From assembly GCA_015501585.1 (NCBI GenBank), contig JADNRY010000140.1, positions 62,001 through 126,000 on the forward strand: a stretch of DNA of 64,000 nucleotides, given 5' to 3'. This DNA comes from Rhodocollybia butyracea. Its lineage: Eukaryota > Basidiomycota > Agaricomycetes > Agaricales > Omphalotaceae. The translations under genes were made by a program, and so were the position numbers. The notes under the pieces are model-generated. The model worked only from the letters and a program-made list of their open reading frames with translations, was not told the origin of the DNA and did not search any database. Below, piece by piece: positions 6,035 through 43,175 of this stretch (positions are counted from its first letter, which is position 1; every line of letters begins with the position of its first letter).

Positions 6035-6326
6035 TGTAACGGAGTCGTGACTTGTTACTTTGGTCACTAACACTTTCCTTAATTGTTTTGTTTACTCATC
6101 GAACTTTAGTAGATAATTCGCTCTTTACTTACTCGTTTCGTATTTATATAATATCTACTTATAGTAATAGGTCTCAAGAAAGGTATATAAGGTAGAGTAC
6201 TTTGCTGTAGGTAGATAGGTCCTGGTGAATCGAAATCCCCCCGGTTTACAACGGTTCTCTCGAGACCACCTCTTCTCTCACACTTCCCGTGTTGCGCTAC
6301 GGTGACTCTGTCACTCTAGCGTTACA
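6035..6326 (+). repeat. Left LTR of the gag-only element
   Basis: It is 292 bp, begins TGTAACGG and ends CGTTACA, and contains a TATATAAG-like stretch near 6183. It matches 9906-10198 throughout except for one T. Confidence 0.93.
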
Positions 6327-6435
6327 TATTTTGAACCCCCAACAACCGCGCTTTTCTTCATCGTCCTCGACGGCCAACTCTTCGTCTGATCAACGCGGAT
6401 TCCGACCTGGACAACAAAAAACTCACTTCTTTACC

Positions 6436-8814
6436 ATGTCGAACTATTTGACAAACCAAAACCGCGACACTAGTCGCTACAATCTCCGAAGTGGCCCTGA
6501 TCGATACCAGAGACGGGAACTTACCACTGTTCGAGATGATGATCAGACTGTTGAACACAGACTGAGTCCCCGAGTGGGAGATGAATCTGCCTCGAGCTCT
6601 GAGGGAGATGGCGCTGCTGCTTTGAAACGCAGTCAGCAGAACTCTGTTGAGGATGTTAACCACAACCTCATTGATGACGAGGGGAACCCAAACGAATGGG
6701 TGACCGTCCGATATGGCTCTCGTCGAAGGGCAATTAGTCTAGACAGCTGTGGAAATAATATTAGTAAATTTCCTTCGCGCCCTGTGATAGATTTGAAACG
6801 CGTTAGTAGACAGGGTCGGGCCAAGAAACCCGCACCATTGTCAGTTGCTCAAGGAGTTATTCGGGAAGCCGAGAGTAGGCATCCTCAATCTCACCGTATC
6901 GGCCTTCATAGACGTATGGACGCCATTGAGCAGAACACTGCTGCCGACATCCGGAGCAGTGAGGAATCGGTTTCCCCAGTGAAAAAACTCTTCATTCACA
7001 AGGGACCTGACCCGAGTAATTTTGAAGTGGCGGACATCTCTGATGATGGCCACAACCTCGATGTTTACAAGGCTTTCCGTGACATTCCGAAAGGAGAAAA
7101 CGAGCCTGGAATAAATAAAATCAGGCCAAAGAAAGTAAAGAAACGGCTGAAACACCGCGCCGGCTCAGAAGCCTTGACGGATTTAGTTGAAGCTCACATA
7201 AGAAATATTGTCGAGCACAGGCCGAGAAAGCCATGTAATAAATATTCGGTTCCGAATATTGAGCGTGTTGTGCGCCCTAACGAGCTTCTAGCTCCAACAA
7301 ATCAGTTATCAAAATTACTGACTCTGGCCAAGGGCAAAAGGCAAGCCGGGAAGCAAAAGAACAAGGGTCGAGGCTATCCTTCCGACTCCTCTTCTGACTC
7401 TTCCAGCTCTGATTTGAGCTCTTCGTCAACGTCAGATTCAGATTCCGACACTTCGAGTTCGGACAGCACCGATTCGGGATATAGACGCCGTGACAAGCGC
7501 CGGCGGAAACATCACAAGAGAAAGAGCAGGATGTTGCTCAAGCCCGATCCCCCCGAGTTATATGACGGCTCTGTGGAAATTCGAGCGTTCATTAAGTTTG
7601 TGACTGAAGGAACGGCATATGTACGTGATGGGCGTGTCCCTAAAAATCGCCGTGTAATGAAATTGTCGAAGTACCTAACGGGAAAGGCATATCAGTTTTA
7701 TTTGACTATGATTGCAGACTCTCCGTTTGACTGGAGATTGAACGAATTCTTTACTGGATTGTACCGCATGGATCAACGTCGTAAACTCAAACGAGCTTCC
7801 CAGGATGATAAGTCGGTTCGAGACTTTCTTGCTGAATTGAATGACCTATTTGACACTGTTGGCATTCTCGATGAACGAGAGAGGGTCCACAAATTGTGGT
7901 CAAGCCTAAATGGAGATATTCAAAAAGGGCTCTGGAGGCAAAAGCTGAACCCAGAAATTTCAACCTACAGAGACGTTGCCATAGCCGCAGAACTCGTTGA
8001 AATTATTGAACATGCCTTGGACAGTAGTGATTACTCGACGGAGCAGGAAAATGGCCCATCCGAGTCTAACTCAGAACGTGATGACTCCCGCCAAAATTGG
8101 CATTCTAAGAATGAATCCTCGTGTGGTGATTCCGAGTCTAACTCAGAACCCGAGGACTCCCACCAACGTCGGCATTTCGAGAGTGAATCCTCGCACAGTG
8201 ATTCCGGATCTGAAGGCAATAGCTTCGGCTCAAATCAGTCTGTTGCCGAGGAAGCTTTGAATGGATTTTCGAGTAGTGGGTTCGAGTCTGAAGGCAACGA
8301 CTCTGGACATTACCAGTACTCTGACGGTGAATTCAGTGGCAATGAATCAAGTCAGCACGAACACGAGAACAGATCAGATAGTTCTGCTCACCAACAGAAC
8401 TCCATACATGGACATTACAAGAATGGACCGGAATTGCATGGGAGACGCTCTATACGTCGAAATCAGCGACGTAAGCTTTCAGAAAAAGAAAGAAATGAAT
8501 ACCTTGCGACTGGTCGGTGTTTCCGATGCGGCGAGTATGGACATATAAGCCGCCACTGCCCCGATAGGCAACCAGTGCGCCGTAATATTTATACCTCTTC
8601 TGACATTGAAGATGGAGATCAAATTTCCGAACTTGACTTTGGGATGGTGAGTTTTGGCCTCCCCAGTTTAGATACAGATTTTGAAGTGAACAGCCGACCT
8701 CCGGCGAATCGTCGTAGAGACTCACATCTTTGCCCGAACTTTGTCAGTAGGGCCAACATAGTGAATGCCTATCGATGGGAGAGTCTGGATGTCCCACTCG
8801 GTTCACGAAAATGA
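6436..8814 (+). CDS. Retrotransposon Gag polyprotein with CCHC zinc knuckle
   Basis: The first ATG of the long frame is at 6436 and gives 792 residues; the frame is open upstream into the LTR without an ATG. The N-terminal half is charged and low in complexity, with a Ser/Asp-rich run at about residues 315-350. The middle (about 375-520, from PELYDGSVEIRAFIKF to DVAIAAELVEIIEHA) resembles the retrotransposon gag capsid domain. A Ser/Glu/Asp-rich linker follows with three repeats of a unit near SESNSE. A CX2CX4HX4C zinc knuckle (CFRCGEYGHISRHC) starts at 8518. Gag packages element RNA into particles. No aspartic protease DSG/DTG motif follows in frame. Confidence 0.9.
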   Translation: MSNYLTNQNRDTSRYNLRSGPDRYQRRELTTVRDDDQTVEHRLSPRVGDESASSSEGDGAAALKRSQQNSVEDVNHNLIDDEGNPNEWVTVRYGSRRRAISLDSCGNNISKFPSRPVIDLKRVSRQGRAKKPAPLSVAQGVIREAESRHPQSHRIGLHRRMDAIEQNTAADIRSSEESVSPVKKLFIHKGPDPSNFEVADISDDGHNLDVYKAFRDIPKGENEPGINKIRPKKVKKRLKHRAGSEALTDLVEAHIRNIVEHRPRKPCNKYSVPNIERVVRPNELLAPTNQLSKLLTLAKGKRQAGKQKNKGRGYPSDSSSDSSSSDLSSSSTSDSDSDTSSSDSTDSGYRRRDKRRRKHHKRKSRMLLKPDPPELYDGSVEIRAFIKFVTEGTAYVRDGRVPKNRRVMKLSKYLTGKAYQFYLTMIADSPFDWRLNEFFTGLYRMDQRRKLKRASQDDKSVRDFLAELNDLFDTVGILDERERVHKLWSSLNGDIQKGLWRQKLNPEISTYRDVAIAAELVEIIEHALDSSDYSTEQENGPSESNSERDDSRQNWHSKNESSCGDSESNSEPEDSHQRRHFESESSHSDSGSEGNSFGSNQSVAEEALNGFSSSGFESEGNDSGHYQYSDGEFSGNESSQHEHENRSDSSAHQQNSIHGHYKNGPELHGRRSIRRNQRRKLSEKERNEYLATGRCFRCGEYGHISRHCPDRQPVRRNIYTSSDIEDGDQISELDFGMVSFGLPSLDTDFEVNSRPPANRRRDSHLCPNFVSRANIVNAYRWESLDVPLGSRK

Positions 8815-19439: not shown

Positions 19440-21094
19440 TCATACCTGCACTCCATTTGTTCCAGCAACTACCACTCTCAAACCCTCCGCATCCAACTTT
19501 CGTAGTGGTTGGTAAACCTCTGCGTCAACCTCTCGCCAAGAAAATTTAAGAACAACAGACCGCAGACAAGCCTTGCCCAATGAGAACATAGCCGCAGACA
19601 AGTCTGAGCCAGGCTTAAACCAACGCGATTCGACCATGCTAATGAAAGTGACATCATCGAATAGCTCTTCGCGTTCGGAAATTAGACGAAGACTATGTAG
19701 TTTTGGAGCAAGCGGGGAAGACGTGGATTGGTGTCGTAGGCTCTGCATGAAATGCGAAGTGATTGGACTCTCCGAGGAGTACTCCAAGTCATCGATTTCG
19801 AGATACGATATGGATGGCATGACTCGAAGTACTGCAATAAGATCCAGATCTGAGATAGAGAGCCACGGAGGGTGAGTGTAGTGATTATACAGGATGAACT
19901 GGTTACAAAGGAGATAAAATCGTCTGTTGGCCAGGTCTCAGTTGACTCATCTTTTAGCACAACCTCATTCAAGGAAGGAAAGCGGAAGGAAGAGAACAAC
20001 ATCTTCAACCACGATGGCTCCCAAAAGGTCCTGATAACAAGACAAGTGATGTTACACCAGGTGCCCTGCACCATTGGATCCTCGACCTCTGAATCTAAAT
20101 CCTCTACGTCAAAAGGTTCGATCTCTAGCGAAAGAGATTTCAGAGAAGGGTAGTTGTGTAGAATCTTTGCGAGCAGTGGCACTGGTGGCGATGCTAACTC
20201 TTCGCCTATACAAAGATGGATAGTTTGTAGTGGATGGAAAGGGACTTTGGTCGGAGGGGACTCGATAGTCGCAAGTGCACAGAGTCTTGGGGCAATCTCG
20301 AGAAGATCTAACTCAGGAAACTGATCACCATCTGTGTCTATCGCAGGGCTCCTGATATCCAATTCTAGAAGTGAAGGAAGCTGCATTCGAGAGAGCATAT
20401 TGTAGAATGACATTGAGTTGTTTGCTTGAAATTTGAAGGTTTCCCAACGGTGCGCATGCCGAAGAAGGAGACGGAAGAAAGCCAGCGACGAAGGCTCCTC
20501 ATCAGGTCCAAGGTGATAACGAAAATTCAATGAGAGCTTCAATGGACACTCGCCCGATCTCTCCACATATTGCGTGACTATGAAACTCAATTCGTATATG
20601 AGCACGTCTATGTCCTGTATGTCCACGGTCAAGCTTGCCCACAAGCTGGGTGACGACAGTGCAAGTTGACGCCACCGAGAGCACACAGAGCTGAGTACCA
20701 TCGCAGGGAAATGGGCGATGAAAGGAGTGTGTACGCCGTCCTCGTCGTCATCGTAGTCATAGATACAGACGTGCTGGAGGATACGTGATAAAATCTCGTT
20801 TGGCAGTGTCCGCACTGGAGACACCAAAGCGCGTAGCTTAGCTCTCTGAGCCTCGAGTTGCTGTTTTTGTTGTTCAATAATCATGATTTGGTGGCGGAGG
20901 CGTCTAATTTCGAAGTCATGATCCTCGATGTCTTTATCTGCCAAAGGCAACAGCTCCTTGACGTGTTCGGGGCGATTCACGAATGGTCCAAACTCGAAAC
21001 GCAAATCGTTGTCTATTTTGGATATTTCTGTAGAGTTGAGGTTTATGCGGATCTGCAACTTTTGGGCGCATCTTGCGCAAAGCGAGGTGGTCAT
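19440..21094 (-). pseudogene. F-box-like array copy 7, frameshifted
   Basis: This full-length copy runs from MTTSLCARC at 21094 to GTNGVQV at 19440, but the frame breaks near 19860, where GAGAGGCC of the paralogues reads GAGAGCC (one G fewer). Upstream of the break the protein is complete with coiled coil and F-box-like motif (RTLPNEILSRILQHVC). Downstream the last 126 codons are open in another frame. One base at a doubled G could be a real deletion or a sequencing slip. Closest relative is copy 6, with which it shares long stretches of sequence. Confidence 0.82.
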
Positions 21095-21129
21095 CGTGCG
21101 AGAGAGAAGGAAGTGTTTTATCGACGGCT

Positions 21130-21137
21130 TAGCGCCC
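21130..21137 (-). promoter_or_regulatory. Shared array motif, TAGCGCCC variant (copy 7)
   Basis: It lies 36 bp before the start codon at 21094. Confidence 0.35.
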
Positions 21138-21413
21138 ATTCCGAAACAAATTCTTGCACGGCACACATGGCGGGCCCGTTCCTCGACCGCGCCGGTTACT
21201 TCCTTCCTTCCTTTCAGATAATTCTGGGTGTTGTTTATTACAGCGTAATTCCTCATGACGTTTAAAATGATAAGCCCTGGTCAGTGTCCCAGTACAAGAT
21301 CTATAAATTGGAACCTTGAGCCATTCCTCCTACTATGATAATTGTTACTGGCTCGACTTTGACTAAAGGATTTCACGCTGATGCCAAACTGTACAGTCGC
21401 AGTGCACAAGCAT

Positions 21414-24095
21414 TCATACATTTACTCCATTTCTTCCAGCAACTACCACTCTTAAGCCCTCCGCATCCAAATTTCGTAGTGGTTGGTAAACCTCTGCGTT
21501 AACCTCTCGCCAAGAAAACTTGAGAACAACGGACCGTATAGAGGTTTTGTCCATTGAGAACATAAGCGCAGACAGATCTGAACCGGGCTTAAACCAACGC
21601 GATTCGACCATGCTAATAAAAGTGGCGTCATCGAATGGCTCTTCGCGTTCGGAAATTAGACGAAGGCTGTGTAGTTTGGGAGCGAGCGCGATGGACGTGG
21701 ATTGGTGTCGTAAGCTCGACATGAGATGTGAAGTGATTGGACTCCGGGACACGACTGTTCCTAAATGGAACCGCGTCGGTTCTTTCCATAAAGAGTCCGT
21801 GTCAACGCTGTCGCTGCCGCTGTCATCGACTTCGAGATAAGATATAGACGGCATGAGTCGAAGGGCTGCAACAAGGTTCGAGTCCAAGCAGGATAGGCCA
21901 CGGAGGGTGAATCTCGTGATCATAGATGAAGCGGTTATGAAAGGAATGAAGATATCTTCTATGTCCACACCATTATGCATTACCTTTTACCACAAGCTCA
22001 TTCAAGGAGGGAAAGCGGAAGGAAGAGAATATCATGTTCGAGGATGGTGTGAATGAATCATCCACAGTGGATGAACCATCTACAGATGATGTACCATCTG
22101 GAGGCAATGAACGATCCACAATAGCAAGAGAAGTGATGTTGTGCCATGTGCCCTGCATCACTGAATCATAGACCACGTTATCCTTGAGCTCAACTGAAAG
22201 AGATCTCAGAGAAGGGCAGCTGTGCAGCATTTCAACCAAGTCTGTTTGCGATGCTGAGAACTTACCCACAAGAAAATGGAGACCATCTAGTTGGTTAAGA
22301 GAGGCGTTGGATAGAGGTGCTTTGCCAGTAGCAAGCGTACGGAGTCTCGGGGCATGTTCGACCAAGTGAGACAGCTGCTGAACACTCTCCAAATCACGGG
22401 CATTATCCCTGGCAATATCCAATTCTAACAGTAAAGGAAAGTGTACACGGCCAGACGCTCAGATGCACTACGTTTATCCGACCGCCGCAGTGCCGGGGAC
22501 CAATTTTATTTTGGACTGATCTTCATAAATTTTAAACTGGGCCCGAAATTCCTAGATAGCCCCAAAATGTAATTTATAATTGCTTTTCCGCTTCAGCGGC
22601 ATCCGACTTACACCTGGGGCCAGCCTTTATTGAACCAAAGTGAACCTGCCATCCATCCAAACCAGTATCAAGCTGTGACCGGTATAATTTGTCGGCAAAG
22701 ACGAATCGCGGTCTGCACGTGTTCAGTTGTTTGTTCGTTCAACTTCAACCACTTTGTTCCCCGCGAAGTCAAGACTCAAGCCATCCGAATCGAAACTCTT
22801 CTCAGGCTGTGCTCAACGTTCTCAAGTACTCAAACGCTCAAGATCGGTGCAAGGACAAGAGCTCTGGCAGGTCTTCAACGTTCAACATGGCTTCATGAAA
22901 CAACGCTCAAGAATCTCCTTCAAGAATCTCAAGTCCTTTTTTAAAAGGGCCATTACTAACATCGAGCAGTTTACAGGTTTGTTACGGGTGCACAGCGAGG
23001 TAAGTTCTTCAGTATTATTGTTTGACATGCTCTAGTATGGTAGCTTGATAAGAGTAGCGTATATTACAGCTGAATACGATTATAATAAACGAACTACCAG
23101 CGGGGCACCGGGATAAGAACCGGAAAGGAACGGAATAAAAAATTCTCGGAACAATTACTGCCATGGGGGCCATCAGGCTCGAAGTACTAGGGACAATTTT
23201 TCTGCGCCTTGGGATAACCTTGAACCCCAGTGCAGTCCCTCACTTCTGCCCCTAGTTGCAAAATACTAGCACTAAGTTTCATCGGCTCTGGGTTAAACTT
23301 AGGTTAATAGATTGGTCTGGCTGTGTAGTTGGGAGAGCATCGGGCCCGGGTGTGATCTCGATCTCCATGACCTCGATACTTGAAGGTTTTCCAACGGTAG
23401 GCATACTGGGTAGCGTAGCCTAGAACGCGTATCCCCATTTCGCCCATTTCCACTTCGGCCATTTCGGGAAGGGCATAATTCTGAGGGTTTATATCCAATG
23501 AGAGCGTTAACGGCCACTCGCCCGATCTCTCTAAAAATCGGGTGACCATGTTGCGGAAACGAAGGTTTCGTGCCACGTCTCTAGTAATAGTATGGCCTAC
23601 CCTCATGGTCAAGTTTGCCCACATTTCAGGTGAAGACAGTGCAAGGTCTCGCCAACGAGAGCATACGTAGCTGATTGCCATTGCGGGGAGATGAGTGATC
23701 ATGAACCAGGAACGACGGAAAGGATTATATCGCTCCATACGCTCGTCGTCGAGACAATTCGTCTCACACGCCTGCTGGAAGATGCGAAATAAAATCTCGT
23801 TCGGCAGCTTCCGCATTGGAGATAACAAAGCGCGTAGCTCGGCTCTCTGGGCCTCGAGCTGTTGTTTCTGTTCTTCAATAATCATGATTTGGTCGTGGAG
23901 GCGTGCAATTTCGGAATCATGGTCCTCAATGTCTTTATCTGCCAGAGCCAGCATCTCCTTGACCCGTTCCGGGGGTGTCACAGATGGCCCAAACTCGGAA
24001 CGAAGATCGTTGTGTATTTTGGATATTTCTGCAGGGCTGAGATTTACGCGGATCTGCGTTTTTTGTGCGCATCTTGCGCAAAGCGAGGTGGTCAT
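21414..24095 (-). pseudogene. F-box-like array copy 8, split by an insertion
   Basis: The N-terminal half (24095 down to about 23328: MTTSLCARC, coiled coil, RKLPNEILFRIFQQACE, VCSRWRDLALSS) and the C-terminal half (22440 down to 21414, ending GRNGVNV) are one family member. They are separated by an 877-bp insertion at 22446-23322 with a 5-bp target duplication. The coding sequence joins exactly at ...QLH|FPLLLELD across the insertion. The C-terminal half has a further one-base shift near 21975. It sits directly downstream of the NOSIP-like gene and marks the right edge of the first array block. A degenerate TTAGCGCTTG motif is at 24134. Confidence 0.86.
22446..23322. mobile_element. 877-bp insertion of uncertain class in F-box copy 8
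   Basis: The insertion is flanked by the direct repeat GTGTA (22441-22445 and 23323-23327), and the interrupted gene is continuous once insert and one repeat are ignored. The ends are weak inverted repeats (GGCCAGAC near the left end, GTCTGGC at the right). There are no TG..CA ends, so it is unlikely to be a solo LTR. No reading frame inside has a recognisable transposase; the longest, at 22630-22944, looks random. A small non-autonomous DNA transposon is the best guess. Confidence 0.7.
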
Positions 24096-28143: not shown

Positions 28144-28244
28144 GCCCGCTTAGCTCAGTGGTAGAGCATTGTACTTATGAGGTCACGTGGAGTCCTGCGC
28201 ATGAGATTATGCAAGGGTCGGCAGTTCGACCCTGCCAGTGGGCA
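28144..28244 (+). tRNA. tRNA-Ile (anticodon UAU) with intron
   Basis: The acceptor stem GCCCGCT pairs with AGTGGGC (one G-U), the D arm is GCTC/GAGC, the anticodon stem TTGTA pairs with TGCAA, and the T arm GGCAG/CTGCC carries the loop TTCGACC. The loop CTTATGA puts anticodon TAT at 28176-28178. A 29-bp intron follows position 37 (28180-28208), the standard place; nuclear tRNA-Ile(UAU) genes usually have an intron. The discriminator base is A at 28244. Confidence 0.95.
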
Positions 28245-28583: not shown

Positions 28584-28588
28584 CTTCC

Positions 28589-28859
28589 TGTAACGCCTCC
28601 ACTTCTGCCTACCCCCCTCACCATTCTGATAACAGCCGGCCACGCCCTACGCGCGCGGCCCAATTCCTTTGGTGTTGTACGCCAATTACCTTATCTTATC
28701 AATTGATAAGATATTATTTCTATTCCTATTCAGTTTGTCTACTTAAGTACCGTACAATTAGCTAATTACGCTAGTTCTTTCGCACCTTGAGTACACAATC
28801 GCATAGCTTTTGTAGTGTTCACGCGTGCGACCTAAGGACTCTGGCCACCGGCCCTTACA
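28589..28859 (+). repeat. Left LTR of the hairpin-rich element
   Basis: It is 271 bp and contains a 22-bp perfect palindrome (28692-28713, centred on CAATTG) and a 12-bp one (AATTAGCTAATT near 28757). Confidence 0.94.
28692..28713. repeat. 22-bp perfect palindrome in the LTR
   Basis: The two 11-bp halves (TATCTTATCAA and its complement) are perfectly complementary with no loop. The same palindrome occurs in the right LTR at 30924-30945. Confidence 0.9.
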
Positions 28860-29024
28860 CTTTTTGAACACCAATCCTGCTATACAGATTGGGTGATCAA
28901 GTTAAAACTTAAGTAAAAAAAAAAAACTACTTGAATAACTATACTACTACCACGTATATCCAACCAAACTCGTTCGTCTAACTCTGCATCAAACGCGCCA
29001 AGCAAAATCAAAACCATCGATCAT

Positions 29025-29513
29025 ATGGACCCTTTTAGGTACTTAGAAAAGTCCCAGAGAACTGCGAGTTATCGCAATTCGTTCAGTGGTGATGCCACGT
29101 CACCAGCAAATTCTCACGACGAGAATATGCCTCGAATACCATCCCGAAAGGATGGTAATATGGGCACAAGTGAATTTACTGATGCCATGTATGCTATAAA
29201 GCAGACACTTCATCATAGCATGCAAATGCTAGAAAGTGTTAACACTATGGTGGAAAACTGGGGAAGACCTGTTAGGTCATCCAATATGAGATGTCCGTCT
29301 ATCGCTGATGGTGCATGGGACCCGCACAGGCCCCGATTATCACCACCATTGCCTACTAACAGTAGGCAAAGCAAAGATCTGATTCAACAAATCAGATCTT
29401 CACATGAGGTGATTCGAACAGATACACAATCTGTTCAAGATGTACAAATGGTCATTGGAATGCCAAGAACCCGCCCATTGTCTTCAACGGTTGACAACAA
29501 CTCAGTACATTGA
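29025..29513 (+). CDS. Gag-like protein of the hairpin-rich element
   Basis: This 162-residue frame starts at the first ATG after the LTR (MDPFRYLEKSQRTASYRNS) and ends at TGA 29511-29513. The central part, TSEFTDAMYAIKQTLHHSMQ, is helical and the rest is Ser/Asn/Pro-rich. It has no zinc knuckle and I do not recognise a capsid domain; the name follows from its place behind the left LTR. The following frame (29517-30551) is in the same phase, so the TGA is the only interruption. At least twelve short perfect hairpins lie within this coding stretch. Confidence 0.6.
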   Translation: MDPFRYLEKSQRTASYRNSFSGDATSPANSHDENMPRIPSRKDGNMGTSEFTDAMYAIKQTLHHSMQMLESVNTMVENWGRPVRSSNMRCPSIADGAWDPHRPRLSPPLPTNSRQSKDLIQQIRSSHEVIRTDTQSVQDVQMVIGMPRTRPLSSTVDNNSVH

Positions 29514-30807
29514 GTATTGAGTGGGAATAACAACCCAACAGGGTTGCTACCATGTTCGCCGGTAACGGCGCAGATGTTACCACATCAGAATACAGTGGTA
29601 AAAGTTGAAAATACAGGGGATGAATCACATCCCAGTGATCCCGTTGAGAGACAGGAGGTATCTTGTGAACAACACGGGCAACCCTGTACGTATGCCATCC
29701 AAGAAGAGGATGAACAAGAGGAGATAGAATCTCCGAACATAACTGATCCTAATGACGAGGAATCGTCCGAAGGAGAATACACCCTCGAACCATACGAGGA
29801 TGAATATGTCAGTCGACTATATGACGACGACAATGACTTTAGCGACTACTATGGTCGCATAATGGAACCGGTTCAGACCGATCCTGAGGATTTTGAAGAT
29901 CCATTAGATGATTGCGGACCACCAGTCTGCATTGAAGAGGACATGGATAATAATTTATTCTTGTCCATAGACCCTCATCATCATTCATTTATAATGAATG
30001 AAGATCGGTTGACTGCTATCAGTCACCATGAAGATGAAGAACCTAAACCTGAACAAGGTAAAGGATTCCAAACTCTAAGCAAACAAATGCCACGCCCTCA
30101 TAGAGGCCCAGCTATAAATTGTTCAATTGAACAACTATCAAAGTCAATGGTTGAAGCCGACCAAAAAGACTGGGTAGAAAGGTACCTAACAGCACAGCAG
30201 GCCATGTGGCCTCTAGATCCAAATACGGATGAACCCATATGGGTCATCTGCGACACGTCGGTATCCGGCGTCGAATGTATGTATGGTCAAGGACCTACAT
30301 GGCAGACCTGTAGGCCTACCAGATTTATGTCCAAAAGGTTTACTGCAGCGCATCATAACTATAGAGTCCTTGTGTTAGAGACTTTATTAAATTCCATTAT
30401 CAAGGAGAGCACAGGGTATGCTCCCTTTGAGGTAGATAGAGGGTACATGTGCCCAATGATGGAGTTTACAATAAATTCCAGTATAAACGAGAGCACCAGG
30501 TTTGCTCCTTTTGAAGTAAAATGGAGAGTACATGCTTTCCATGGTTCGTGAATACCCAAGTGATGCACAAGTGTTGCTGGGTGTATGCAAATGAAACCCC
30601 AGCTATCGATGTATCAAACTTGATAATGGGTAAATCATATGAACCCCAGAATAACGTCTTCACAGGAAGATTGTCTCCGGCCCCAAGAGGACCGAGATTG
30701 TTACCTACTCTGTCTACAATTAGTAGACTGACAACTAGACCCAGTAATATGACTTACTGGTATCTATTAATGTCACATTGTTTCGATTAGTGCCCCTGGC
30801 ACTAATC
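29063..30807. repeat. Array of short perfect inverted repeats (hairpins)
   Basis: Examples with stem/loop lengths: 29137-29157 (8/5), 29349-29369 (8/5), 29374-29400 (11/5), 29416-29436 (8/5), 29531-29546 (6/4), 29617-29633 (6/5), 29981-30001 (9/3), 30119-30134 (16-bp palindrome), 30199-30212 (6/2), 30712-30728 (6/5), 30741-30760 (7/6), 30785-30807 (10/3). Many 5-bp stems lie between them, for example 29063-29076, 29754-29767 and 29783-29799. They run through both coding frames and the 3' untranslated part. Confidence 0.85.
29517..30551 (+). CDS. Pol remnant: RNase H and integrase pieces
   Basis: The frame has 344 codons after the TGA at 29511 and no ATG of its own at the front, so translation would need readthrough or an internal start. 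The first 200 residues are acidic and unassigned. From about residue 235, VICDTSVSGVECM ... RPTRFMSKRFTAAHHNYRV resembles the start of the gypsy RNase H domain (TDAS-type Asp, then SRKF..A..NYP). It then jumps directly to two tandem versions of an integrase-end motif (STGYAPFEV and STRFAPFEV, preceded by NSIIKE and NSSINE). Reverse transcriptase and the integrase core are missing. The frame has stayed open despite the deletion. Confidence 0.72.
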   Translation: MSGNNNPTGLLPCSPVTAQMLPHQNTVVKVENTGDESHPSDPVERQEVSCEQHGQPCTYAIQEEDEQEEIESPNITDPNDEESSEGEYTLEPYEDEYVSRLYDDDNDFSDYYGRIMEPVQTDPEDFEDPLDDCGPPVCIEEDMDNNLFLSIDPHHHSFIMNEDRLTAISHHEDEEPKPEQGKGFQTLSKQMPRPHRGPAINCSIEQLSKSMVEADQKDWVERYLTAQQAMWPLDPNTDEPIWVICDTSVSGVECMYGQGPTWQTCRPTRFMSKRFTAAHHNYRVLVLETLLNSIIKESTGYAPFEVDRGYMCPMMEFTINSSINESTRFAPFEVKWRVHAFHGS

Positions 30808-30808
30808 T

Positions 30809-30820
30809 AGTGGGGGAGGG
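30809..30820 (+). other. Polypurine tract
   Basis: AGTGGGGGAGGG immediately precedes the right LTR, the expected position of the plus-strand primer in LTR elements. Confidence 0.75.
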
Positions 30821-31091
30821 TGTAACGCCTCCACTTCTGCCTACCCCCCTCACCATTCTGATAACAGCCGGCCACGCCCTACGCGCGCGGCCCAATTCCT
30901 TTGGTGTTGTACGCCAATTACCTTATCTTATCAATTGATAAGATATTATTTCTATTCCTATTCAGTTTGTCTACTTAAGTACCGTACAATTAGCTAATTA
31001 CGCTAGTTCTTTCGCACCTTGAGTACACAATCGCATAGCTTTTGTAGTGTTCACGCGTGCGACCTAAGGACTCTGGCCACCGGCCCTTACA
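30821..31091 (+). repeat. Right LTR of the hairpin-rich element
   Basis: It is 271 bp, matching the left LTR at every position I compared; target duplication CTTCC follows. Confidence 0.94.
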
Positions 31092-31096
31092 CTTCC

Positions 31097-40910: not shown

Positions 40911-41443
40911 TATTAGGCCCTATTTCAGCTTATAAACGCCAGTAAAAGCCTCAGTAGTACTAGTATAAATTTTTAAAGGAATTCGCATATTCAAAAGGAA
41001 TATTGAAAGCAGCCAGAACATGTTTACAATTTACAAGTGTATACACATCATACTTGCACACCGTTGCTCCCGGAAACTACCACTCTCAAACCTTCTGCAT
41101 CCAATTTCCGTAGAGGTTTATAAATTTCCGCGTCTACCTCTCGCCTGGAGCCAAAGTCAAGAACAACAGAACGAATGCAGGCTCTACCCGTTGCTAACAT
41201 TGCCATAGACAACTCTGAACCAGGTTTAAACCAGCGCGATTCAACCATCCCGATAGAATCGTCATCATCAAAATCTCCGTGCGTGTTTTTCAGAGAAAGA
41301 CTCTGTAGTTTTGGAACTAGGGAGATAGAACCGGATTGCTGATGAGTTAGGCTCGAGAGGAGTTTTGAAGTGATTGGAGAAACTTTATAGGAGTCGGCAA
41401 TTTCGAGATGAAGTAAGTCTGGCATGACTCGAAGAGTCGTAAT

Positions 41444-42509
41444 CACTGCGCCAGCGTCAAATAATACCGGGCGAAATTTTTTCCGAAATTATTGCTGTAA
41501 TTACTTACCTTTTTCGGTAAAAATTTCGGTCGAAAAACGTTTTCTTTTTCGTGCGAAAAATGAATTGAAAAACAAACAAAAATTTCGCCTGTAAATCTTT
41601 GATAATTTCGGCTGAAAAATGTATTGTAATTGATTATCTTTTTCGATCCGAATTTCGCCGGTAATCTCTTATCTATTTCGTCCGAAAAAGATAATGAAAT
41701 TGCTTATCTATTTCGCTCGTGATTAATTAAAAATTTCGCTCGAAATTTTTACAAGGTAATAACTGGACAATGATTGGACAGGAACTGGCCAAGAACTGGC
41801 CAAGAACTGGGTAGTTCGGTCATGTGACAAATCACTTGTCTTTTGAACGCGATATACGGGCTCATACGGGATAGAATTCCTTCAATCTGTCTTGTGCCGA
41901 GTTCTAGTAACCATTGAATATTGAAATGCTGTTTTATTATAGTTATGAATCAAAACTCGCAGTCATGCACAGAAATCCGCTAGAGATGTATATATGATCT
42001 TCAGCGCTTCTCTCAGTTTCTCCAAGTCCTCTTCTAGGCAGAGCTGCAGCTATATAGTATCCCGTATGAGTTCATATGTCGCGTTCAAAGACAGATGAAG
42101 TTTAGCGGATACACGTCACATGACCAAACTACCCAGTTCTTGGCCAGTTCTTGGCCAGTTCTTGGCCAGTTCCTGTCCAATCATTGTCCAGTTATTACCT
42201 TGTAAAAATTTCGAGCGAAATTTTTAATTAATCACGAGCGAAATAGATAAGCAATTTCATTATCTTTTTCAGACAAAATAGATAAGAGATTACCGGCGAA
42301 ATTCGGATCGAAAAAGATAATCAATTACAATACATTTTTCAGCAGAAATTATCAAAGATTTACAGGCGAAATTTTGTTTGTTTTTCAATTCATTTTTCGC
42401 ACGAAAAAGAAAATGTTTTTCAACCGAAATTTTTACCGAAAAAGGTAAGTAATTACAGCAATAATTTCGGAAAAAATTTCGCCCGGTATTATTTGACGCT
42501 GGCGCAGTG
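41444..42509. mobile_element. CACTA-like foldback transposable element (non-autonomous)
   Basis: The 1066-bp element has very long terminal inverted repeats of roughly 400 bp, starting CACTGCGCCAGCGTC and ending in the complement, GACGCTGGCGCAGTG. It is flanked by the 3-bp duplication AAT (41441-41443 and 42510-42512). CACT(A/G) ends with 3-bp duplications are the pattern of the CACTA/EnSpm superfamily. The arms are rich in TTTCG/CGAAA words. Toward the middle the left arm has two and the right arm three copies of an AACTGGCCAAG-type unit. The central 170-200 bp is not inverted and codes for nothing recognisable. Confidence 0.85.
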
Positions 42510-43175
42510 AATAAGGCCCGAATCGAATAAGCACGAACCGCGGAGCGTGAAACTAGTGATCATGCAAGAAGATCTGGAGACAAAGGAAACAAAGGCCTCT
42601 ACTGGCCAAAAAAGTGTAGTAACCATCCACGACAAACCTATTCAAGGATGGGAAGTTAAAGGAGGAAAACACGTTCTCTAAACCTCCATCCCTCATAGGT
42701 AAAACCAGGGATGTGATGTTGCGCCATGTGCCCAGTGCACCCTGCTCTAGATCAACATCCTGGTTCAGTCCGTGACCAAGTTCAAGAGATTCCAGAGAAT
42801 GGCAGCTGTGAAAAGCTTTGGTCAATTCTTTCAGCAACCAGCCCACATATTCGAGATGGTCTATTTGATCGCACAAGACGTCAAGCATTGATACCTGGCA
42901 AGTGGCAAATGCACGAAGTCTCGGAGAATGCTCAAAGCAATCCAAGCCACTATCCTCGTTTTTGTAATCCAGTTCTTCAAGTAAGGGGAAATGCAGCTTG
43001 GAGAGTATGCTGTGGTTGTGGCTCAGGTGACTATGGCTGAATGGGGAATCTCCCACATACTCGAATGTTTTCCAACAACGAGCATGCTGTGCAAGGTGGA
43101 TTAGGGAAGGGACCAAGTAAGATGAACCTTCCAAGATCATATATGAATCTTGTATGCTCAGTGCAAGCGTTAACG

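Follow-up and report, generated by a model that had tools for sequence, protein, structure and literature searches.

Short perfect hairpins saturate an LTR retrotransposon clade assigned to Ty3/gypsy in Rhodocollybia butyracea

In the genome of Rhodocollybia butyracea, one clade of LTR retrotransposons carries short perfect hairpins throughout all of its long parental reading frames. The saturation was confined to this clade among the elements compared, the hairpins persisted between its lineages with compensatory changes, and silent changes were fewer in the stems. We somewhat favour the view that selection has acted on the whole genome of the clade to make it fold up as consecutive short perfect hairpins, as the folding predictions suggest, and that the element found in the window (the whole stretch of 64,000 nucleotides analysed here) is a derivative of this clade.

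Judging by its sequence, the window element appears to be a recently inserted, non-autonomous and internally scrambled derivative of the Ty3/gypsy clade. The insertion is young: both LTRs are identical, CTTCC stands at both ends, and a polypurine tract lies ahead of the 3' LTR. The features are as follows, hairpins being written as stem/loop.

28584–28588: target-site duplication CTTCC, left copy, read directly; the same 5 bases follow the right LTR
28589–28859, + strand: 5' LTR, TGTAACG...CCTTACA, 271 bp, identical to the 3' LTR
28692–28713: 22-bp palindrome within the 5' LTR (28589–28859)
28860–29024, + strand: 5' untranslated part; hairpins counted from 28863
29025–30551, + strand: gag-like reading frame, one in-frame stop in the window copy, 13 stems of at least 6 bp
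29137–29157: hairpin 8/5
29349–29369: hairpin 9/3
29374–29400: hairpin 11/5, the longest
29416–29436: hairpin 8/5
29662–30112, + strand: end portion of the parental gag-like ORF (92% to L034, 85% to L031)
29720–29734: hairpin 6/3, what is left of a larger double hairpin by comparison with sister copies
29981–30001: hairpin 9/3, pairing the same as in the parent
30115–30180: third parental integrase fragment
30119–30134: 16-bp palindrome (stem 8, loop 0)
30209–30367, + strand: RNase H fragment (Pfam PF17917), 86% to the parent
30386–30592, + strand: two partly duplicated fragments of the parental integrase ORF, parental order lost
30585–30742, + strand: segment of the parental gag-like ORF, after the integrase pieces
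30785–30807: hairpin 10/3 directly before the polypurine tract; one G-C pair is A-T in the parent (compensatory)
30809–30820, + strand: polypurine tract AGTGGGGGAGGG, read directly
30821–31091, + strand: 3' LTR, identical to the 5' LTR
31092–31096: target-site duplication CTTCC, right copy, read directly

The hairpins singled out in the initial annotation were found with the stems and loops given there (11/5, 10/3, 9/3 at 29981–30001, and 8/5 at 29137–29157 and 29416–29436), except that 29349–29369 is 9/3 and not 8/5. The 16-bp palindrome and a 22-bp palindrome in each LTR were present as described.

The LTRs belong to a direct repeat of 274 nt (28589–28862 and 30821–31094), which comprises the LTR and three further common bases. 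The element consists of reshuffled parental pieces in the order 5' end, gag end, integrase, RNase H, integrase twice, gag and 3' end. The stretch 29122–29661, with the longest hairpin, had no match among the parental pieces searched. No reverse transcriptase of its own was found in the window copy: Pfam gave only the RNase H piece, and blastn against the parent returned gag, RNase H and integrase pieces and no piece of the reverse transcriptase (RT) ORF. The in-frame stop of the gag-like frame is absent from five of the six other copies covering that place. At the site 29726/29727, four sister copies (L002, L004, L005 and L006) have 38–39 extra bases forming a 10-bp hairpin, L003 has 9 extra bases, and L007, like the window copy, has none; the gap looks like a deletion between short direct repeats. 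The hairpin before the polypurine tract is kept, with its compensatory pair, in the window family (30785–30807) and in the parent (L039, about 2185–2207), and it may have a role of its own in plus-strand priming. Near the polypurine tracts of L057 and L064 the sequence is different; by eye it is still palindromic-looking, below the cut of 6 bp.

Two further observations concern the surroundings. Rfam places a tRNA gene, longer than the model, at 28144–28244, 345 bp upstream of the window element. At 15 other loci no tRNA gene scored above the Rfam cut-off; insertion next to tRNA genes was therefore rejected as a habit, and the closeness here is probably due to chance. A foldback element occupies 41440–42513, with arms at 41569–41810 and 42144–42385 (242 nt) and at 41440–41584 and 42369–42513 (145 nt); its arms are 97% complementary, and 333 nt lie between the inner arms.

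The interior of the window element holds far more hairpins than expected by chance. With loops of 3–8 nt, 30, 16, 7 and 6 stems of at least 5, 6, 7 and 8 bp, respectively, were counted in 28863–30820, while 1000 dinucleotide shuffles gave means of 9.3, 2.5, 0.7 and 0.15 and maxima of 21, 9, 5 and 3 (2.5 ± 1.5 for stems of at least 6 bp). The reading frame (29025–30549) contained 25, 13, 5 and 5 such stems versus means of 9.2, 3.4, 1.0 and 0.5 and maxima of 17, 10, 6 and 3 in 1000 codon-preserving shuffles (3.4 ± 1.8 for stems of at least 6 bp); stems of at least 7 bp alone (5, shuffle maximum 6) lay within the codon-shuffle range. The previous estimate of about 40 inverted repeats is borne out by 44 stems of at least 5 bp with loops of 0–12 nt, counted per segment: 4 in the 5' untranslated part (0.8 expected), 34 in the ORF and 6 in the 3' untranslated part. 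No stem of at least 5 bp with a loop of 3–8 nt occurred in the 5' untranslated part. The stretch behind the main frame (30552–30819) had 3 stems versus 0.4 expected, and the LTRs were hardly enriched (1 stem of at least 6 bp versus 0.2). In a scan of the 64 kb by 2-kb windows, the element reached 17 stems and non-overlapping windows at most 7; the remaining 60 kb contained 82 stems versus 78.8 expected. Based on the shuffles and window scans, chance and base composition are ruled out as the cause. The stretch previously labelled a gag-only LTR element and described as free of the pattern, taken here as 6035–8000, had 1 stem of at least 6 bp versus 2.5 expected.

A search of the genome from which the window comes (95.6 Mb in 1381 contigs), in which 40 of 263 candidates were scored, gave 44 matches. 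Among the matches listed, the small family has at least nine copies (the window copy, five other full copies and three partial ones); copy counts are lower bounds, since only 40 of the 263 candidates were scored. The other matches listed have only segments in common with the window element (83–93% identity), and these segments lead to a parent element of about 10.9 kb. A parent copy on C605 is bounded by LTRs at L031:1489–1745 and L039:2220–2475, which are 99.6% identical over 257 positions, and has ACTAG flanks on both sides. Besides a gag-like ORF of 1326 aa, it has domains for RT, RNase H and integrase as well as an additional 3' ORF. In the gag-like ORF, the zinc knuckle (zf-CCHC, E 0.004) and aspartic protease (RVP_2, E 0.097) were both below the Pfam cut-offs. 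PF00078 is found in one ORF, and PF17917/PF17919, PF17921 and PF00665 follow in the next, that is, in the order RT–RNase H–integrase. Domain order is the criterion for the Ty3/gypsy superfamily, and by its domains the parent is assigned to the Ty3/gypsy LTR retrotransposons. The ORF of about 700 aa after the integrase (L039:1–2136) is hairpin-saturated too; it is readable over 711 codons from the edge of the stretch taken, and its one domain match, to a coiled coil, is weak. Another locus, L037 (C532), carries inverted copies of the parent family with tandem 463-bp repeats of one segment.

The initial annotation treated the saturation as a property of the window element alone, which does not hold: it reaches larger relatives elsewhere in the genome, a gypsy clade with bigger coding members. 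Compared with codon-preserving shuffles, the parent had 39 stems of at least 6 bp versus 4.7 in gag, 17 versus 1.8 in RT, 21 versus 3.9 in RNase H–integrase and 24 versus 3.0 in the 3' ORF, and the pol of a sister lineage had 46 versus 5.5. The excess in the clade was thus 5–9 times. In 500-nt bins, the parental interior held 4–18 hairpins per kb and the flanks 0–2 per kb; the 653 nt around the parental 5' LTR and leader were weakly enriched (2 stems versus 0.9). The coverage was even, with a mean hairpin spacing of 58–76 nt in five segments, and loop sizes peaked at 3–5 nt and fell to the background level by about 10–12 nt. The parental lineage (A) and the sister lineage (B) differ at 24% of nucleotides (76% identity), and both are saturated at a similar density. 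For the RT–integrase stretch, 15 further clade copies were taken (L044, L045 and L050–L062), with 15 to 46 stems of at least 6 bp per 2.9 kb. In the three lowest (15, 16 and 16), less than one third of the stretch aligns to the parent; another such stretch has 31.

Seven stretches from outside the clade, hand-picked to span the range, served as controls: five gypsy (RT identity 36–44%), one copia-type and one Helitron. They had 5–12 stems of at least 6 bp in 2.0–2.9 kb versus 2.5–4.8 in codon shuffles (1.1–2.5 times), and all seven showed a weak excess of 1.4–1.6 times at stems of at least 5 bp. The other gypsy stretches lay far below the excess of the clade, and a trait common to coding DNA or to mobile elements at large in this genome is thereby rejected (1.1–2.5 versus 5–9 times). 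Two gypsy stretches with 42% RT identity, L048 and L065, had a mild excess at stems of at least 6 bp (12 versus 4.8 and 10 versus 4.3 in codon shuffles), which may be a milder version of this trait. Protein relatives occur in other species; the best 120 of 590 were listed, with Peniophora, Phanerochaete, Trametes and Armillaria among the named sources (50–56% protein identity) and others reaching 61%. For clade DNA from other species, no match was found in viral contigs or genome contigs, and plasmids gave 3 records with distant pieces.

Predicted folding energies followed the hairpin counts. In 350-nt pieces, the folding excess was 39.7% in A gag, 45.5% in A pol, 31.1% in the A 3' ORF, 40.6% in B pol and 27.8% in the window interior, as compared with −1.8% in window DNA at 20001–24000 and 7.0% and 7.7% in two other gypsy elements. 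Against codon shuffles, the four clade segments gave 35.6, 41.0, 29.8 and 36.3% and four other gypsy elements 5.2, 11.5, 7.6 and 9.8%; the local folding energy of the four segments had z from −10 to −19. A folding excess over order-shuffled controls, the criterion for genome-scale ordered RNA structure (GORS), is therefore predicted for the four parental coding segments and the window interior. The energies are ambiguous as to strand because perfect stems fold on both.

Comparison of lineages A and B indicated that the hairpins persist beyond expectation. An exact pairing axis was common to both lineages for 20 of 46 hairpins versus 0.4 when one map was rotated; when five pairs in the partner were enough, 23 of 47 and 26 of 49 axes were common. 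Of the A hairpins, 16 of 47 retained at least six pairs on an unchanged axis in the other lineage, as did 16 of 49 B hairpins, while 4.2 and 4.3 were expected from 400 placements of equal geometry, none of which reached the observed value in either direction. About half of the hairpins were replaced between A and B at a similar density in both. Compensatory pairs, which the initial annotation had proposed as a test of stem conservation in elements from other genomes, were over-represented between these two lineages of one host genome: they made up 14 of 84 changed pairs from A to B and 14 of 106 from B to A, where neutral rates give about 5 and 6, and 8 of 26 in each direction in shared-axis hairpins, where about 1.5 are expected. 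The other changed pairs on shared axes were A-C (7 and 6), G-U (1 and 4) and other (10 and 8). It should be noted that the counts for the two directions overlap in many of the same pairs and are not independent. Between the window element and its parent, 123 of 146 hairpin pairs were the same and 2 were compensatory. Copies 93–99% identical within lineages had few changes, mostly transitions, and gave little information.

Silent sites pointed in the same direction. When matched for amino acid, third positions of stem codons had 64 differences versus 90.9 expected (z −4.0), and 67 versus 94.3 (z −4.1) in the other direction, a test with some built-in bias, since any stem counted as perfect has necessarily stayed unbroken on its own branch. 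In a variant free of this condition, we asked whether columns stemmed in A change less among B lineages, and the mirror of this. Third positions of A-stem columns changed in 25 of 557 cases among B lineages versus 131 of 1566 outside; the pooled p of 0.002 is optimistic because the five comparisons share one sequence, and singly p ranged from 0.06 to 1 in the same direction. Positions 1 and 2 showed no reduction (50 of 1078 versus 124 of 3155). In the mirror test of B-stem columns among A lineages, third positions were not significantly different (38 of 910 versus 122 of 2497), and positions 1 and 2 were reduced (42 of 1756 versus 192 of 5014, p 0.004).

The initial annotation offered two explanations, self-templated repair and selection for a folded RNA. 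Selection for a folded genome fits better, given the roughly fourfold survival of hairpins, the compensation and the constraint on third positions, but it is incomplete, as G-U pairs had no consistent advantage. The selected property would be the general folding of the genomic nucleic acid rather than individual hairpins, given that some half of the positions are replaced at a similar density. The benefit would most likely be a compact genomic RNA that is hard to reach for host RNA surveillance or nucleases; such an RNA would also pack well into Gag particles. By keeping its hairpins, the small derivative would remain a substrate for the parental machinery.

Self-templated writing, which we consider unlikely but the strongest of the rivals, supposes that the cDNA strand folds back and copies its own other arm, so that near-palindromes are perfected and hairpins accumulate at silent sites without benefit. 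Several observations agree with it: the stems are Watson–Crick with no consistent preference for wobble pairs, the effect is confined to one clade among the elements compared and so perhaps tied to its own enzyme, the small family is pieced together from parental segments in non-colinear order, which is a sign of template jumps, and the stretch behind the main frame is enriched as well. Template switching has been described for perfect hairpins in RNA genes, according to the available text of PMC8794818. The expected perfect Watson–Crick stems with short loops are indeed present, but clusters of changes in one arm are absent. Two or more broken pairs occurred in 43 hairpin comparisons (23 from A to B, 20 from B to A). 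At least three occurred in 25 of them, and in those 25 the one-sided changes were all in the left arm in none and all in the right arm in two. Where there were exactly two one-sided changes, they fell in the same arm in 7 of 14 cases, which is the chance level, and changes in the left and right arms were about equal overall (50:64 and 72:57). Moreover, self-templated writing should give a normal or higher silent rate in stems, and the observed rate was lower. With changes in both arms and slower stem sites, this earlier idea is less favoured; on the sequence comparisons, constraint on structure appears to be the better reading than template-switch mutation, with about half of the hairpins replaced between lineages.

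If the constraint acts on structure, the strand that folds has to be considered. If the sense RNA were folded, G-U should be much better tolerated than A-C. Among changed pairs, G-U:A-C stood at 18:21, 19:23, 18:25 and 18:25 in four comparisons of lineage A with lineages B and C. Hairpins on shared axes gave 1:7 and 4:6, lineage-specific hairpins 22:14 and 14:20, the comparison of the window element with its parent 6:6 and 3:2, and stems with a single mismatch 14:24; within lineages the ratios were mixed. As no advantage of G-U over A-C in the sense strand had a consistent sign across all comparisons, ordinary sense-RNA structure with wobble pairs is unsupported, and we make no claim as to whether the folded molecule is RNA or cDNA.

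That the folded molecule is the single-stranded cDNA (or an antisense transcript), whose hairpins would compact or protect the minus strand after removal of the RNA template, seems improbable to us. A sense A-C mismatch is G-T in the minus strand, and A-C outnumbered G-T by 21:6 in single-mismatch stems of L031, by 24:14 in a pool of six segments (p 0.08), by 7:1 and 6:4 among shared-axis changes and by 95:34 in stem flanks (58% A-C expected, p 0.0004). However, the flank excess mostly disappeared once the A-rich, G-poor composition of the flanks was fitted (A-C 74 versus 65.9, G-T 29 versus 35.4), so that the strand call from flanks was rejected as mostly composition. The window element ran in the opposite direction (1:3), and so did the lineage-specific changes from A to B (A-C 14, G-U 22). 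Loop composition at first seemed sense-specific and was weak on more data: the loops are rich in A and T and, compared with shuffles, show hardly any strand specificity. A bolder combined statement, that the whole 10.9-kb genome, coding parts included, consists of perfect Watson–Crick hairpins that either work as single-stranded cDNA or arose through fold-back copying by its own reverse transcriptase, is put forward only tentatively. If either were true, a reverse-transcribing element would shape its coding sequence by nucleic-acid structure, for which no description was found among the literature titles searched.

Least probable of all are dispersed packaging signals, in which Gag would bind many separate hairpins and the small derivative would keep them for packaging in trans: even coverage, A-rich loops (0.38 versus 0.31 in shuffles), a preferred C-G closing pair (0.36 versus 0.23) and the largely unchanged pairs of the derivative agree with this, but no common loop motif stands out, and A..A loops reach only 0.167 versus 0.119.

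LARD and TRIM elements are non-autonomous derivatives of LTR retrotransposons. The window element resembles them in its complete LTRs, 5-bp target duplication, polypurine tract and the failure to find a reverse transcriptase, and differs in having retained a gag-like frame with reordered pieces of the parent in it. No description of hairpin saturation in an LTR retrotransposon was found among the literature titles searched, and a term search within PMC6475782 gave no hit. According to the available text of PMC11381356, yeast Ty3 RNA is a mosaic of stable and dynamic regions, and stable regions make up to 30% of Ty1 and Ty3 RNAs. Ty3 and the clade share the superfamily (by domain order), an A-rich genome and structured regions spread along the RNA, whereas hairpin saturation is not among the features described in that text. 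Template switching, as presented in the available part of PMC8794818, originates and maintains RNA hairpins and predicts perfect stems, short loops and multi-base compensation; it is described there for DNA replication of RNA genes, whereas the changes in the clade are not one-armed and the silent sites of its stems are slow.

The closest likeness is to GORS, in which, as stated in the available text of PMC7642675, stem-loops occur throughout the genome and the system is agnostic about which bases pair. Common to both are stem-loops through the whole coding genome and a strong folding excess. Between GORS relatives pairings are poorly conserved at a steady amount of structure; in the clade about half of the axes were kept and half replaced, at a similar density. 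The GORS concept further comprises usable G-U pairs in the RNA and a connection with persistence or escape from host RNA sensing. The folding excess given there is 15% for SARS-CoV-2, 7.5–10.7% for HCV and 23.4% for what is stated to be the most structured vertebrate virus. The bearer of the trait is an LTR retrotransposon here and an RNA virus there. Furthermore, the clade has very short, local, perfect Watson–Crick hairpins, G-U is not consistently favoured, and compensatory change is detectable. Since the predicted folding of the parents exceeds that of GORS, the hairpins are short and perfect, and wobble tolerance is not clear, we did not file the clade as GORS; the window element is filed as a Ty3/gypsy derivative of a putative new, hairpin-saturated variety. 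Host silencing, packaging and a mutational habit of the enzyme are candidate causes of globally folded RNA genomes. Saturated and ordinary gypsy clades occur together in one genome, with derivatives sharing the trait, so the cause of global folding can be tested with internal controls. With 31–46% in the parents, the predicted folding excess of this reverse-transcribing mobile element is 1.3 to 1.9 times the highest vertebrate RNA virus value in the available text of the GORS paper, the shuffling and step size differing somewhat between the two.
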